DNA of 64,000 nt. Source: Metabacillus sp. B2-18 (lineage in GTDB: Bacteria > Bacillota > Bacilli > Bacillales > Bacillaceae). Below are positions 58,801 through 63,781 of this stretch, piece after piece. Numbering within the stretch: the stretch's first letter is position 1; each line of letters opens with the position of its first letter. Where the stretch lies: NCBI RefSeq assembly GCF_021117275.1, contig NZ_CP088245.1, positions 4,962,001-5,026,000 on the forward strand, written 5' to 3'. A program made the position numbers and the translations under genes. A model generated the notes under the pieces. That model was not told where the DNA came from, ran no database searches, and saw only the letters and a list, made by a program, of their open reading frames with translations.

Positions 58801-60831
58801 TCATACGTTTGATACTTCTTTTCCTAGCTGTAATTGATGCATTTTATAATACTTTCCTTTTTGCTCTAGGAGTTCTTCATGACTTCCTCTTTCGACAATC
58901 TCTCCATGATCTAACACTAAAATTTGATCTGCATTTCGAATCGTTGATAAGCGGTGCGCAATAATAAATGTTGTTCGTCCTTCCTTTACCACATTTAATG
59001 CTTGTTGAATCATTGCTTCAGTTTCTGTATCAATATTAGCTGTTGCTTCATCTAGTATTAAAATTGCCGGGTCATATGCTAATGCTCGGGCAAACGAAAT
59101 AAGCTGTCGTTCTCCCGCTGATAACGTGCTACCCTTTTCTAAAACTGGCTCTTCAAATTGATTAGGTAGCTGTTTAATAAATCTCTCTGCACCTACATCT
59201 CTCAAAGCTTTTCTTACCCGATCTATAGGAATTTCATCATTTCCGAGGCTAACATTTGATTCAATTGTACCCGTAAATAGAAACGGATCCTGTAACACAA
59301 TGCCCATGTGCTTCCGCAGCTGTTGACGTGGAATTTGGCTTGTATCCATAGAATCTATCGTTATTTTTCCGCGGTTGATATCGTAATATCGAAACAACAG
59401 GTTGATAATGGAACTTTTCCCAGATCCTGTGTGACCAACTAACGCAACTGTCTCTCCTTTTCTTGCTTCAAAGGAGATATTTTTTAACACATCATTTTCA
59501 CCATCATACGAGAATGATACATTTTCAAATGCAACGTTTCCTTGAAATCTAGGAAGGATCTCTGTGTCCACTACTTCCCCTTTTTCATCGAGTAGTTCAA
59601 ATACACGCTCTGATGCAACACGTGCCTGTTCCAACTGTGCAAGCTGATTTACAATATCCGTAACAGGCTGGAACAATCGATTTAAATAATCTACAAATGC
59701 ATACAAAACACCAATTGAGATAATACCTGTTGCTGTTAGTGATTGTCCTCCGAAATACCAGATTAACGCTACAAAGGTGGCATTTCTTAGCACATTCACT
59801 AAGTTATGGGACGTTAAAGCATTTAAACTTAGTAATTTATTTTGATACGTGAAGTGCTCCTTATTCAGCACCTCAAATTCATCAATTGTTTGCTTTTTTC
59901 GACGAAATGCCCGAATAATCGTCATACCTTGTATCGACTCATTTACCACTCCATTTATATCACTAACACGAGTACGGATTAAATGATTATAGTTAGAAGC
60001 TACTTTACGGTAAAGCACCGTCCAGATAAACAAAATCGGTACAACAAGCAATGTAATCAGTGCCAGCTTGACGTCTAAGAAAAACAAAGCAATTAAAATT
60101 CCTGTCATATAAATACCACTTGTGAAAAAGCTCGCTAACACTTTCACATATAATTCCCTTATCGCCTCTGTGTCGTTTGTTACACGTGAAACAATTTTCC
60201 CGGCGGGACGATTGTCGAAATATGAAAGTGGCACTCTTTGAATATGCTCAAATACATCTGTTCTCATTTTCTGGATAATACGGTTGGCTGCCTTTTGTAA
60301 CAGCAAGGACTTTCCATATTGAAAGAAAGCTGCAATCAAGAGCAATCCTACATAAATGCTTAGAAGGAAAATAATCGGTTTAATTTCAGGCTGATAAAAT
60401 GCTAACAGTTCTTCTCTCGTTAATTTATTTACAGGATAGTTAGCAGTTTCATTCCCATTACCAATTGTTAATATTTGGTTATCAACAGACCTCTTACCAT
60501 CAAATGTTACATGCTCATCTGTTACATAGAAGGAGCGCCCCACTTGCACAACCTGTATTTGATCTTCACCAAGTGACTGATCTGAAGTTATATCTGTACT
60601 CTTTTTATAATACTTACCTTTATAGGTGACGGATTGTTCATCTTCCTCTAAAACCTCTACCCACGGCTTTTCAACCCCCATCATATGGTGATCGATCATT
60701 CTTTTTGCTATAAACGGACCAGTTAACTCTGCTGCTACAGCAAAGGTTAGCATAGCAAGCGCAATAAAGATTGTTCGTTTATAGTGAAGTGCATATTGAA
60801 CTAGGCGTCTTCCTGTTGAGGGATTCTTCAT
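58801..60831 (-). CDS. bmrD: Multidrug ABC transporter, BmrD-type half
   Basis: A 676-residue ABC half-transporter. A soluble insert of about 100 residues lies between the first two membrane helices (about 45-150), the feature that distinguishes BmrD (YheH). The nucleotide-binding domain has Walker A GHTGSGKSS, signature LSAGERQLISFARAL (non-canonical) and Walker B LILDEATANIDTETE with the catalytic glutamate. It forms an asymmetric heterodimer with the upstream gene, exporting drugs. Its ATG directly follows the partner's stop, with GGGGAGGTG upstream. Confidence 0.93.
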   Translation of the reverse strand: MKNPSTGRRLVQYALHYKRTIFIALAMLTFAVAAELTGPFIAKRMIDHHMMGVEKPWVEVLEEDEQSVTYKGKYYKKSTDITSDQSLGEDQIQVVQVGRSFYVTDEHVTFDGKRSVDNQILTIGNGNETANYPVNKLTREELLAFYQPEIKPIIFLLSIYVGLLLIAAFFQYGKSLLLQKAANRIIQKMRTDVFEHIQRVPLSYFDNRPAGKIVSRVTNDTEAIRELYVKVLASFFTSGIYMTGILIALFFLDVKLALITLLVVPILFIWTVLYRKVASNYNHLIRTRVSDINGVVNESIQGMTIIRAFRRKKQTIDEFEVLNKEHFTYQNKLLSLNALTSHNLVNVLRNATFVALIWYFGGQSLTATGIISIGVLYAFVDYLNRLFQPVTDIVNQLAQLEQARVASERVFELLDEKGEVVDTEILPRFQGNVAFENVSFSYDGENDVLKNISFEARKGETVALVGHTGSGKSSIINLLFRYYDINRGKITIDSMDTSQIPRQQLRKHMGIVLQDPFLFTGTIESNVSLGNDEIPIDRVRKALRDVGAERFIKQLPNQFEEPVLEKGSTLSAGERQLISFARALAYDPAILILDEATANIDTETEAMIQQALNVVKEGRTTFIIAHRLSTIRNADQILVLDHGEIVERGSHEELLEQKGKYYKMHQLQLGKEVSNV

Positions 60832-62574
60832 TTAGCTCACCTCCCCATATGAATCTGCTTGTTGACGATCAAATTGTTCTTTGTACCATTTTCCAAGCTT
60901 AATAAGCTGTTCATGTGTTCCTTGTTCAATTATTTTTCCTTCATCCATCACGATAATCCAATCTGCATGCTGGACGGCCGATAAACGATGTGCAGTAATG
61001 AATGTGGTTTTTCCAGCTCGTTCATGACGAATGTTTTCAATAATCTTTGCTTCTGTTTTTCCATCAACCGCCGACATGGAATCATCTAATAAAAGAATTT
61101 CAGGATCCTTAATTAATGCCCGTGCAATTGAGATGCGCTGTTTTTGCCCACCTGAAAGGGCTACACCTTTCTCTCCTACTAGAGTGTCTAGGCCTTTCGG
61201 AAGAATAGACAAGTCAAAGGCTGCTGAATTCAATGACGACTTAATTTCATCTTCATTAACATTTTCTTTTCCAAACTTAAGATTTTCTCGAATTGTTCTA
61301 GAAAATAAAATTTGTTCCTGTGGCACATAGCCAACCCATGAGTGAATGTCATCAATTAGAATCTCTTCAATTGGTTGACCTGAAACGAGAAGTTTCCCTT
61401 CACATAATGGATACTCTCTTAGCAGCTGCCTGAGTAATGTTGTTTTGCCAGAACCCGTTTTTCCAACAACACCGATTGTCGCTCCTCTTTTCACCTGCAA
61501 AGAGATGTTTTTTAAATTATCTGTTGTTGAGGTTGGATAACGGAAAGTTACATTAGAAAACTCAATATTTTCTGGTATGCTAATGTGTTTAGGATTTTTC
61601 ACATCCTTAACGTCTTCTTCATAGGCTAGAGTCTCATTTACCCGGTCTAATGAAGCGTTTCCGCGTTGGAGAATATTGATTAGTTCTCCAACAGCAAACA
61701 TCGGCCAAATTAACATTCCAAGGTAAATGTTAAAGCTAACTAATTCTCCTAGAGTAATCAACTGGTTGAACACAAGATATGCACCATAGCCCAAGCCAAT
61801 CACATAGCTTAAGCCAACTAGGATTTTAATGGTTGGTTCAAACAGTGCATCGACCTTGGCGACAGCGATATTTTTCTCATAAACATCTTCTGTCATTTCT
61901 TTGAACCGCTCTTCATCCGCTTTTTCTTGTACATATGCGCGAATAACCCGCACTCCTGCTATTGATTCAAGTACATTGTCATTCAAGTTCCCAAAAGCAT
62001 CCTGGGCAACAGTAAAACGTTCGTGAATGAGCTTCCCAAAGTAGTTAATAGCAATAGCCATTAACGGAAGTGGGATCAGTGCAGCTAGAGTAAGCTTCCA
62101 GCTAATTGTGAATCCCATGACAAAAACAATGATAATCATAAACACAGTTGAATCGACCAAGGTTAAAATACCAAACCCGGCAGTTAACGAAATAGCTTTT
62201 AAGTCATTTGTTGCTCGTGCCATTAAATCACCGGTACGGTTTTTTTCAAAAAATCTAGGTGTCATCGCAAGCAAGTGTTTCATAAAACGATATCTTAAAA
62301 TCCGCTCAATTAAGTGCGCTCCTCCAAACAATTGATACATCCATACATAAGTTATCGCATAGCTGACAATGATGAGCGCAATAAAGAAAAACAGAAGCTC
62401 ACGTAACCGTTCAGCAGTCATCTGACCAAACTGAATATCATCAATGGCTATTCCAATTATCTTTGGTGGAATAACATCTAAAATACTAACGAAGATCAGT
62501 AGTGAAATGGCTACTGTGTACCGTTTCCAATATTTATAAAAAAACCATCTTAATTTTCCTAGTACTGAGAACAT
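60832..62574 (-). CDS. bmrC: Multidrug ABC transporter, BmrC-type half
   Basis: A 580-residue ABC half-transporter with six helices and a nucleotide-binding domain: Walker A GKTGSGKTT, canonical signature LSGGQKQRISIARAL and Walker B LLLDDSMSAVDGKTE, where Asp replaces the catalytic Glu. That degenerate site is the mark of BmrC (YheI) and pairs with the functional glutamate of BmrD. It starts after GGAGGG and is preceded by a leader region with a terminator, so expression is probably induced by ribosome-targeting antibiotics as in B. subtilis. Confidence 0.93.
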   Translation of the reverse strand: MFSVLGKLRWFFYKYWKRYTVAISLLIFVSILDVIPPKIIGIAIDDIQFGQMTAERLRELLFFFIALIIVSYAITYVWMYQLFGGAHLIERILRYRFMKHLLAMTPRFFEKNRTGDLMARATNDLKAISLTAGFGILTLVDSTVFMIIIVFVMGFTISWKLTLAALIPLPLMAIAINYFGKLIHERFTVAQDAFGNLNDNVLESIAGVRVIRAYVQEKADEERFKEMTEDVYEKNIAVAKVDALFEPTIKILVGLSYVIGLGYGAYLVFNQLITLGELVSFNIYLGMLIWPMFAVGELINILQRGNASLDRVNETLAYEEDVKDVKNPKHISIPENIEFSNVTFRYPTSTTDNLKNISLQVKRGATIGVVGKTGSGKTTLLRQLLREYPLCEGKLLVSGQPIEEILIDDIHSWVGYVPQEQILFSRTIRENLKFGKENVNEDEIKSSLNSAAFDLSILPKGLDTLVGEKGVALSGGQKQRISIARALIKDPEILLLDDSMSAVDGKTEAKIIENIRHERAGKTTFITAHRLSAVQHADWIIVMDEGKIIEQGTHEQLIKLGKWYKEQFDRQQADSYGEVS

Positions 62575-62612
62575 TCATATCCCTCCTTTGATATCAAATA
62601 AAATGTCTTCAG

Positions 62613-62666
62613 TTAGCCACCTTCCATCCAATCTAAATAAATACGAACTACCTTTTGTTTTAACAT
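62613..62666 (-). CDS. Second leader reading frame, 17 codons, before bmrC
   Basis: ATG 62666 has AAAGGAG about 8 bp upstream and encodes MLKQKVVRIYLDWMEGG, then TAA, 38 bp before bmrC. It lies after the leader terminator, so it is made only from read-through transcripts. It is in the same frame as the upstream leader. It may couple translation to bmrC or may be the end of a once longer BmrB-like leader. Confidence 0.5.
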   Translation of the reverse strand: MLKQKVVRIYLDWMEGG

Positions 62667-62734
62667 GCTCAAAACTCCTTTCATTTGTAAAAAAGTATCT
62701 ATATAAACGGGCAGATATGATACCCGGAATAAAC

Positions 62735-62772
62735 AGAAAAAGGCATTATGCATGTGTAAAGTGCATAATGCC
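62735..62772 (-). terminator. Attenuator hairpin in the bmrCD leader
   Basis: GGCATTATGCA and its perfect 11-bp complement close around nine bases; on the minus strand TTTTTC follows. It sits about 160 bp before bmrC but downstream of the promoter and first leader frame, so it must be passed for transporter expression. Confidence 0.85.
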
Positions 62773-62849
62773 CGAAAAAAGACAATATAAAAACGCACGT
62801 CACAATAGTGATGACCTGCGCAGAAAAGTAAGTTAAGTGTTAGATCATT

Positions 62850-62921
62850 TTAAAGAAAGTTATGGCGGGTCACCTTACAATATGAAATTTTGCTATAAAA
62901 TCGCACTCTTACAATTTCCAT
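62850..62921 (-). CDS. Leader peptide (23 residues) of the bmrCD operon, BmrB-like
   Basis: ATG 62921 has GGAGG exactly 8 bp upstream and lies about 32 bp after the predicted start site. The peptide begins MEIVRVRFYSK and is basic with several aromatic residues, ending at TAA. In B. subtilis bmrCD follows a translated leader (bmrB) whose ribosome stalling by antibiotics prevents termination. Position and architecture fit that role; sequence kinship to BmrB could not be checked. The frame stays open past this TAA down to 62613. Confidence 0.65.
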   Translation of the reverse strand: MEIVRVRFYSKISYCKVTRHNFL

Positions 62922-62959
62922 TTTGTAACCCTCCAATTTTTGTAAATTAATTCATTTTT

Positions 62960-62989
62960 ATTGTATGTTTTTTCAAATCGTACTGTCAA
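62960..62989 (-). promoter_or_regulatory. Strong sigma-A promoter of the bmrCD leader
   Basis: On the minus strand TTGACA (62984-62989), an 18-bp spacer and TACAAT (62960-62965). The -35 is perfect and the -10 has one mismatch. Start is expected near 62953. Confidence 0.8.
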
Positions 62990-63148: not shown

Positions 63149-63763
63149 TTATTTATTCATACTAGCCAGAAAGTCACCTAAAAGATCACTTAAGTCATCT
63201 ACTGGTTCATCTTCCTTCGCTTCACCCTCTATCGTAGCAGCAACTTCATTTTCTGTAGGGAAGATATCAAAATCAGCAATATCATCTTCAAGTGCATTTA
63301 CTACTACACTCTCTTCTTCTTCATTATTCTCTACCTGATTAACAGGGAAACCTTCCACTTCTACATCCATCGGGACATTTTCAACTTCCTGTAAATACAG
63401 AGCTTCATCTATATCCAGAGAATTACTAGTTAATGAAGCTAATATCGATGTTGCTCTGACTGGATCAGATAATAGTTGATAAACAATACTTCCCATTAGT
63501 GCCTCTGAATGAGAATGTTTTAGCCAATTTCGTTGATCTTTTGATAGTTGTTTTGGCAAAGGAAGTGTAATCATTTCTTTCTCTTTTTTTAATGAGCTGC
63601 CCACTCCTTCTAATACAAAATCAGCGATTGTACTAGAAAAATTTCTTTTCTCTGTTTGTTTTAGTTTCTCCAGTTGTCTTACTAAATGATCAGGGGTATC
63701 AGAGGGAAGGCGAAAGGTAATAGCCTGTCCCCTTTTTATGGTTGGTGCGCCCTTTTTATTCAT
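63149..63763 (-). CDS. Ribbon-helix-helix-like partition adaptor
   Basis: A 204-residue protein. The N-terminal segment IKRGQAITFRLPSDTPDHLVRQLEKLKQTEKRNFSSTIADFVLEG has the strand-helix-helix pattern of ParR/RHH DNA-binding proteins. The second half (about 110-204) is highly acidic and probably disordered (NNEEEESVVVNALEDD), ending in the hydrophobic patch LSDLLGDFLASM, which could bind the actin filament. ATG 63763 follows GGTGG. It starts 18 bp after the stop of a ParM-like gene, the classic order of type II partition operons. Confidence 0.7.
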   Translation of the reverse strand: MNKKGAPTIKRGQAITFRLPSDTPDHLVRQLEKLKQTEKRNFSSTIADFVLEGVGSSLKKEKEMITLPLPKQLSKDQRNWLKHSHSEALMGSIVYQLLSDPVRATSILASLTSNSLDIDEALYLQEVENVPMDVEVEGFPVNQVENNEEEESVVVNALEDDIADFDIFPTENEVAATIEGEAKEDEPVDDLSDLLGDFLASMNK

Positions 63764-63781
63764 ATAACCACCCAATTTTAA

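Follow-up and report, generated by a model that had tools for sequence, protein, structure and literature searches.

Here we describe the leader of a multidrug pump operon in Metabacillus sp. B2-18 that probably works in two stages, with an attenuator formed by a first short reading frame (ORF1) and a terminator (T1) followed by an independently conserved module that contains a second short frame (ORF2). The elements, their conservation, their alternative pairings, the frame-free spacing of ORF1 and the peptide-level conservation of ORF2 can be read from the sequence. The window, that is the whole 64-kb stretch of DNA analysed, carries on its minus strand, in this order, a promoter, ORF1, T1, a second terminator (T2), a hairpin (H3), ORF2, bmrC and bmrD. 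ORF2 ends 38 nt before bmrC, and the end of bmrC at 60832 abuts the start of bmrD at 60831. The features are as follows.

62960..62989, minus strand: sigma-A type promoter TTGACA-18-TACAAT, 11 of 12 consensus matches
62929..62934, minus strand: RBS1, the ribosome binding site GGAGGG of ORF1, which with the next bases makes arm A
62925-62931, minus strand: arm A, GGGTTAC, partner of arm B
62850..62921, minus strand: ORF1, 23 codons, MEIVRVRFYSKISYCKVTRHNFL, with counterparts in 20 of 20 Metabacillus loci
62881..62889, minus strand: AATTTCATA, with a CAT at 62882-62884 able to base-pair with the start codon of ORF1
62867..62873, minus strand: arm B, GTGACCC, 48 nt past the ORF1 start, able to pair with A or C
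62820-62794, then TTTTT at 62793-62789, minus strand: terminator T1, overlooked in the preliminary description, 21 nt ahead of T2
62812..62820, minus strand: arm C, CGCAGGTCA, the 5′ arm of T1 and alternative partner of B
62794..62802, minus strand: arm D, TGACGTGCG, the 3′ arm of T1
62742..62772, then TTTTT at 62741-62737, minus strand: terminator T2, perfect 11-bp stem with a 9-nt loop
62708..62726, minus strand: hairpin H3, CGGG..CCCG, followed by the AU-rich stretch TTTATATAGATA
62675..62680, minus strand: RBS2, AAGGAG, of ORF2
62613..62666, minus strand: ORF2, 17 codons, MLKQKVVRIYLDWMEGG, C terminus conserved
62581..62589, minus strand: RBS of bmrC, AAAGGAGGG
60832..62574, minus strand: bmrC, 580 codons, one half of a heterodimeric multidrug ABC exporter
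58801..60831, minus strand: bmrD, 676 codons, second half of the exporter

The best PDB matches of the two gene products are B. subtilis YheI (BmrC; E 1.4e-248) and YheH (BmrD; E 4.7e-268). With both subunits related to YheI/YheH and the genes adjacent, the operon is predicted to encode a BmrCD-type heterodimeric ABC exporter; the transporter had been assigned to this type in the preliminary description, and YheI and YheH are indeed its closest solved relatives. The promoter, the 23-codon ORF1, the 11-bp terminator, the 17-codon ORF2 and bmrC named there are likewise all present in the sequence, and both frames and the terminator are kept in 20 of 20 Metabacillus loci. The promoter had also been called strong: it has 11 of 12 consensus matches, but a promoter scan returns three promoter-like sites against 4.0 expected from shuffles, and the promoter alone is not above chance. 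Similar hexamers are also visible 5′ of ORF1 in other Metabacillus loci. It is thus conservation, and not the promoter score, that marks the leader elements as more than chance. Of 21 genomes of the genus, counting the one that holds the window, 20 have a BmrC orthologue (G004 has a 34% match only), and ORF1, ORF2, T1 and a T2-type hairpin occur together at all 20 of these loci. The leader folds more stably than most of its dinucleotide shuffles (z = -2.34; 2 of 100 shuffles as good). No Rfam family reaches its gathering score anywhere in the window. Just 5′ of the leader lies a 208-codon frame (63149-63775, minus strand) for which neither NCBIfam nor Pfam gives a family match at E 0.001.

ORF2 was sought with a rule blind to its peptide, which takes the frame of 12-35 codons with the best RBS that ends 5-150 nt before bmrC. 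In a first Bacillales set of 142 distinct loci, from which five exact duplicate upstream regions had been removed, this rule returned 123 candidates; 117 of them end in Gly and 112 in the motif [DEK][GSDN]G. From 710 shuffled regions came 246 candidates, 13 with a Gly end and none (0/246) with the motif. In a further set of one locus per genus code, a [GSDNT]G end was found in 27 of 32 among the matches listed, and at least three of these 32 loci (L199, L202, L211) repeat an ORF2 peptide of the first set, so that this further set is not wholly new material. Combined, and with two more duplicates removed before the total was taken, an ORF2-type [G/S/D/T]-Gly-stop end is present in 142 of 172 Bacillales loci, among the loci listed. 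For L012 the search window was widened, its ORF2 lying 312 nt from bmrC; L152 satisfies the rule on the C terminus, although its frame seems to be fortuitous; in L130 and L131 a frame ending in ESG comes second in the RBS ranking, and both are counted as misses. Set aside were L172 (a locus at a contig end, whose upstream region was missed), L078-L088 (genomes already used for Metabacillus) and L021-L048 (paralogues or duplicates of the pattern hits). The preliminary description had set the two-frame design apart from a single leader frame. The two frames are real, but the design is not peculiar to this genome: both frames recur across Metabacillus when upstream regions of bmrC are aligned, and the ORF2 type recurs across most Bacillales loci, that of B. 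subtilis included.

Other short frames preceded by an RBS in the same DNA, 747 in number, end in Gly in 25 cases and in the motif in 6. All six lie 5′ of bmrC; Aquibacillus copies at positions -278 to -289 make up four entries (three frames), and the remaining two are second-ranked ORF2s. Three Aquibacillus loci (L116, L130, L134) carry this extra ORF2-like frame, with an EGG, ESG or DGG end, about 280-290 nt 5′ of bmrC. It stands about 250 nt 5′ of the usual ORF2 and is followed by a short frame resembling the start of bmrC, an arrangement that suggests an ancient duplication, within the locus, of ORF2 together with the start of bmrC.

Strong conservation is confined to the last three residues of ORF2, and the remainder drifts widely. 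Across the 142 loci the final Gly follows G (72 loci), S (62), D (7) or T (1), and third from the end stands E (81), D (34), K (20) or another residue (7). The last three codons and the stop are nevertheless spelled in 58 different ways in the DNA, which argues for selection on the ORF2 peptide. Its length ranges from 16 to 27 codons, 18 being commonest. In a Bacillus subgroup (L168-L171, L175) ORF2 has a GTG start and 27 codons and ends in ...NLESG or ...NIESG; these longer forms show that the N-terminal portion can vary when the end stays constant. The stop is TAG in 92 of 142 ORF2s, 4 of 117 bmrC genes and 19 of 116 ORF1s, a contrast that is only suggestive, as the abutting of bmrC and bmrD may favour TGA and the automatic ORF1 picker that feeds this control took a wrong frame in some loci (e.g. 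L004). Directly 3′ of the ORF2 stop stands C (82 of the 142 loci), T (46), A (13) or G (1), which is not a uniformly weak context; related species not being independent samples, the stop and next-base counts are descriptive.

By the blind rule, 30 of 172 loci have no matching ORF2. It is absent from an 11-row clade of Oceanobacillus/Virgibacillus/Ornithinibacillus type and from some other loci. On a quick BmrC tree of 128 of the 172 loci, with every third Metabacillus retained and L130, L131 and L152 labelled ORF2-positive, ORF2 is clustered: its presence requires 10 changes, at least 6 of them forced by well-supported branches, against a mean of 21.4 for shuffled labels. In other orders of the class, spanning nine families and searched with nearly the same rule, 16 of 20 loci have no ORF2-type frame. 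One family from another order (f49) has a DSG or ESG end in three of four loci and EGD in the fourth. The absence of ORF2 from whole clades and from other orders indicates that the pump does not need it.

Taken together, we consider it very likely that ORF2 is translated and functional. The published account of bmrB, attenuation by a single leader, would make ORF2 an incidental frame or a plain spacer for reinitiation, and we regard this as unlikely. It gains from B. subtilis plasmid constructs based on bmrB 1-162, which respond to lincomycin without ORF2 according to the available text of that report (PMC4191407), and from some clades that lack ORF2 and yet keep ORF1-like frames and terminators. 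An incidental frame, however, would not keep a Gly-stop end throughout the order in so many DNA spellings when shuffled regions never yield the motif, and reinitiation alone leaves the conserved peptide end unexplained. Nor does a spacer sit well with the 146 and 312 nt that separate ORF2 from bmrC in two species.

The conserved residues lie at the C terminus, directly beside the stop, as would be expected of a termination-arrest peptide, for which ORF2 is a candidate. Conservation that is mainly nearest the stop suggests that the end of the peptide acts inside the ribosome, and Gly-ending peptides are reported to be released slowly (PMC7246954, citing Pierson 2016, in the part of the article available). 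That ORF2 acts by slow termination is the proposal we favour for it, though we hold it at somewhat less than even confidence. Its main rival is that ORF2 is a free microprotein, co-expressed and acting in trans, for example on BmrCD or on the ribosome, with no cis-regulatory role. The conservation of ORF2 at the peptide level would suit such a role, as would the Aquibacillus ORF2-like frame, which also precedes a bmrC-like short frame in what is apparently a local duplication; and at least one leader peptide, peTrpL, is described as acting in trans in the accessible portion of PMC7298713. Against this, strong conservation of just the last three residues points to a peptide sensed close to the peptidyl-transferase centre more than to one that folds and binds a partner, and no membrane segment is seen by eye in the listed ORF2 peptides. 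We thus give the free microprotein a low probability, about the same as that of the single leader.

ORF1 presents a different kind of conservation. Arm B is an anti-Shine-Dalgarno segment, complementary to RBS1, and may pair either with RBS1 or with the 5′ arm of T1. In an alignment of 20 sequences, standard pairing is found in 99.3% of cells for A:B, 98.3% for the start codon with CAT, 100% for C:D and 100% for B:C; controls with slid strands give 20-54% (A:B, start codon and C:D together) and 0-40% (B:C). Variation in the paired arms is modest and mostly from G-C to G-U. In four sequences, a change at one position of C is matched by changes at the bases of D and of B that pair with it (C-G to U-A, G-C to A-U), and the one pair changed on both sides compares with column-shuffle means of 0.9 and 0.8, i.e. 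no excess. Support for the proposed pairings is thus retained pairing more than compensation, the structure having been drawn from one aligned sequence.

The spacing of these arms holds beyond Metabacillus. With ORF1 chosen by RBS strength alone, 127 of 166 loci have a strong A:B helix (six of the 172 have no ORF1 candidate), and in these B starts a median of 48 nt after the start codon (quartiles 45 and 52) and the ORF1 stop follows 17 nt (14, 23) past B. B falls in reading phases 0, 1 and 2 in 54, 41 and 32 of the 127. An A:B score of at least 16 is reached by 66% of loci against 13% with shuffled ORF1 bodies, although the helix is better than that of shuffled bodies at the 10% level in only 107 of 166 loci. 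Counterparts of ORF1 in L015 and L016 are 22-codon frames.

Most Metabacillus ORF1 peptides contain (K/Q)ISY, and a sequence-specific arrest peptide on this motif, in the manner of ErmCL- or RYR-type leaders, would be another way to hold a ribosome; tlrB does need a macrolide arrest motif, as stated in the available part of PMC6851288. Letters like AATTTCATA are kept, however, in different frames by genus, reading I-S-Y, N-F-I or Q-F-H among the loci listed, and we reject KISY arrest as the main constraint on ORF1. That B occurs in all three phases and that CAT pairs with the start codon point the same way. So does a five-codon recoding of bmrB in B. subtilis, which kept about 2-fold induction by lincomycin while overall expression was lowered (PMC4191407, from the text available). 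An arrest-peptide ORF1 is accordingly quite improbable. Frames that differ across genera, B in every phase and CAT opposite the start codon make the constraint look like one on RNA, in which ORF1 serves as a position ruler and its peptide is not conserved.

The leading edge of a ribosome reaches some 15-16 nt beyond the P-site codon, counted from its first base. With the ribosome stalled anywhere in codons 1-11, B would thus stay accessible, and a ribosome standing on the stop of ORF1 would cover the end of B. We infer antitermination in this species and the positions of the ribosome in a first stage made of ORF1, arms A-D and T1, where the position of the ribosome, not the identity of the peptide, would carry the message. 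In the absence of a ribosome, RBS1 would pair with B and C with D, and T1 would halt transcription. A freely moving ribosome would cover B up to and at the ORF1 stop, and T1 would form again. A ribosome stalled within roughly the first 11 codons, where 50S inhibitors often hold it, would cover A and leave B free; B could then take C, and RNA polymerase would pass T1.

A leader frame with its own RBS thus stands 5′ of a putative intrinsic terminator, the arrangement of a bmrB-type attenuator. The preliminary description had placed this attenuation at the 11-bp terminator. The ribosome-mediated anatomy known from B. subtilis bmrCD is upheld, but the terminator paired with ORF1 in Metabacillus is T1 and not T2. 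The alternative pairings A:B, B:C and C:D are all kept in the 20 sequences, and the terminator wins at equilibrium: in RNA folding, T1 and T2 form in all six ribosome settings tried, so that B:C must act kinetically. A simple terminator scan reports neither T1 nor T2 in this region, only H3 and one site inside bmrC; T2 was missed because its 9-nt loop exceeds the limit of 8 in the scan.

T2 itself is less easily placed. A hairpin with a T-rich tail occupies its site in 20 of 20 Metabacillus loci, only the upper stem being reported in L018 and L019. Stage 1 as drawn leaves the passage of T2 unexplained. A cascade in which arm D captures an arm of T2 was tried and rejected, the predicted energies being uneven (-7.0 to -13.4 kcal/mol, with shuffle means of about -5 to -7). 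GCA[T/C] occurs near the stem base of terminator-like hairpins in 117 of 171 Bacillales loci and in 6 of 171 once-shuffled regions, and the stem starts with [A/G]GCAT in 88 of these 117 hairpins. Conservation of sequence is not expected of a plain terminator, so that T2 may serve a second purpose beyond termination.

Downstream of T2, a perfect stem of at least 5 bp is present at the H3 site in 104 of 139 loci, with 57.0 expected from shuffles. The AU-rich stretch 3′ of H3 has no -35-like partner by eye that would make it a second promoter. Repeat-like insertions are seen by eye between ORF2 and bmrC in L009 and L012 and between T2 and H3 in L013. Insertions that flank the H3-ORF2 module, with none inside it, suggest that H3 and ORF2 form one unit.

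H3 and ORF2 would make up the second stage, past the terminators, with a peptide of 16-27 residues whose usual end is acidic/Lys-[Ser/Gly]-Gly-stop. Lying 3′ of both terminators, ORF2 cannot prevent termination there by stalling, and we infer all of its action. Most likely it would hold the ribosome at its stop by slow termination, either constitutive or drug-enhanced, and a ribosome parked just 5′ of bmrC could set mRNA stability or the translation of bmrC. That ORF2 instead works by translation attenuation, in the way mgtQ acts on mgtB, and opens a structure that otherwise masks the bmrC RBS, is very improbable and unsupported: its position would fit, and intergenic small ORFs of this kind exist (PMC8092293, in the part available), but the predicted accessibility of the bmrC RBS equals that of shuffled controls (0.60 versus 0.59, 139 loci).

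The comparison extends to the locus where this type of regulation was established. According to the available text of PMC4191407, B. subtilis bmrCD has been shown experimentally to be under ribosome-mediated attenuation, is induced by chloramphenicol, erythromycin and lincomycin and not by kanamycin or gentamicin, and loses induction when bmrB is untranslated; recoding five codons of bmrB kept the induction ratio and lowered expression. This inducer pattern, the need for leader translation and the recoding result fit the position ruler proposed for stage 1. In our data the BmrC of locus L176 is identical to the solved YheI over 574 residues, and its upstream DNA agrees with the bmrB of that report in opening with GTG, running for 53 codons, stopping 119 nt ahead of bmrC and carrying C at positions 136 and 140; a close relative, L174, matches too. 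ORF1 of L176, MPRNLRVYQTVSYWRGKPFVLFS, has a strong RBS and starts 16 nt before the bmrB GTG in a different frame. ORF2, VKTNTEARAVRAKLDEKSCKEKIEGG, has a GTG start and ends 17 nt before bmrC, within the 119-nt gap after bmrB. In the group of five loci to which L176 belongs, ORF1 is intact in all five; the annotated bmrB start is kept in three (the others have GTA and TGT), and the annotated frame runs for 53, 53, 52, 42 and 34 codons.

These comparisons suggest that the annotated bmrB reading frame is probably wrong. The recurrence of an ORF2-type frame across most Bacillales loci, B. subtilis among them, means that the published single-leader picture is probably incomplete as well. In the text available (PMC4191407), the knockout of the start codon took away, in addition, alternative starts and RBSs of the 5′ UTR, the plasmid constructs were based on bmrB 1-162 or 1-109, with ORF2 outside, and the chromosomal 5′bmrC-gfp fusion to -18 of bmrC carried ORF2 unaltered. 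Given the scope of the knockout and of the bmrB 1-162 and 1-109 constructs, the published data cannot tell the ORF1 and bmrB frames apart. Running counter to the ORF1 reading, an in-frame BmrB-GFP fusion fluoresced from a plasmid, and not from the chromosome, in the same report (PMC4191407).

If the comparison holds, the bmrCD leader has been read in the wrong frame, and its second half, ORF2, was left unaltered in the published experiments, as far as the available text of PMC4191407 describes them. If true, a sequence-blind ruler for early stalls would account at once for induction by dissimilar 50S drugs and for the lack of induction by kanamycin and gentamicin. ORF2 would also provide a very short peptide end, conserved widely, for studying how a C-terminal glycine and acidic residues slow bacterial termination. 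We put forward tentatively, and short of an even chance, the full reading: that acidic/Lys-[Ser/Gly]-Gly-stop is a new termination-slowing class, located in an unrecognised second leader in most Bacillaceae including B. subtilis, which would act as a second checkpoint after the terminators, with a first leader that senses early stalls by distance alone and an annotated bmrB frame that is wrong.

Reportedly, bmrCD was the first multidrug ABC pump found under a ribosome-mediated attenuator. Stage 1 has the anatomy of this known kind, and the second leader peptide is apparently undescribed: a literature search, weak in that few subscription papers were covered, brought up nothing on a second leader frame preceding bmrC or on the two-frame layout, and PMC11109978 and PMC8632094 mention neither bmr nor yheI. 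The closest known system, bmrB-bmrCD itself, has the orthologous pump, and there the leader must be translated and the drug must bind the ribosome, as given in the accessible part of PMC4191407. It differs in that the paper draws one 53-codon leader frame with one terminator inside, whereas ORF1 here is a 23-codon ATG frame, its counterpart in L176 lies in another register, and Metabacillus has T1 ahead of T2.

The tlrB (yxjB) gene of B. subtilis likewise combines a leader peptide with transcription attenuation before a drug-resistance gene, but on the available text of PMC6851288 it requires an RYR arrest motif and NusG pausing and hides the RBS of the gene, whereas the ORF1 peptide shows no conservation and a masked bmrC RBS finds no support. 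The toiL uORF of E. coli topAI-yjhQ resembles stage 1 in that one small frame answers several classes of ribosome-directed drug through the position of the stall; it is a single frame and acts on translation and Rho-dependent termination (PMC12121999, as far as its available text goes). Like ORF2, mgtQ of Salmonella mgtCB is a tiny intergenic frame directly 5′ of a transporter gene in which acidic residues matter, but it has eight residues and frees a hidden RBS, and the accessible portion of PMC8092293 reports no Gly-stop end. At msrD, the leader msrDL holds the ribosome at the stop of a short frame, with release factors excluded, and so controls an intrinsic terminator (PMC10314930, in the part available). 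That frame encodes MYLIFM, ends in UAA and lies 5′ of its terminator, whereas ORF2 ends in Gly, mostly at UAG, and lies 3′ of both terminators.
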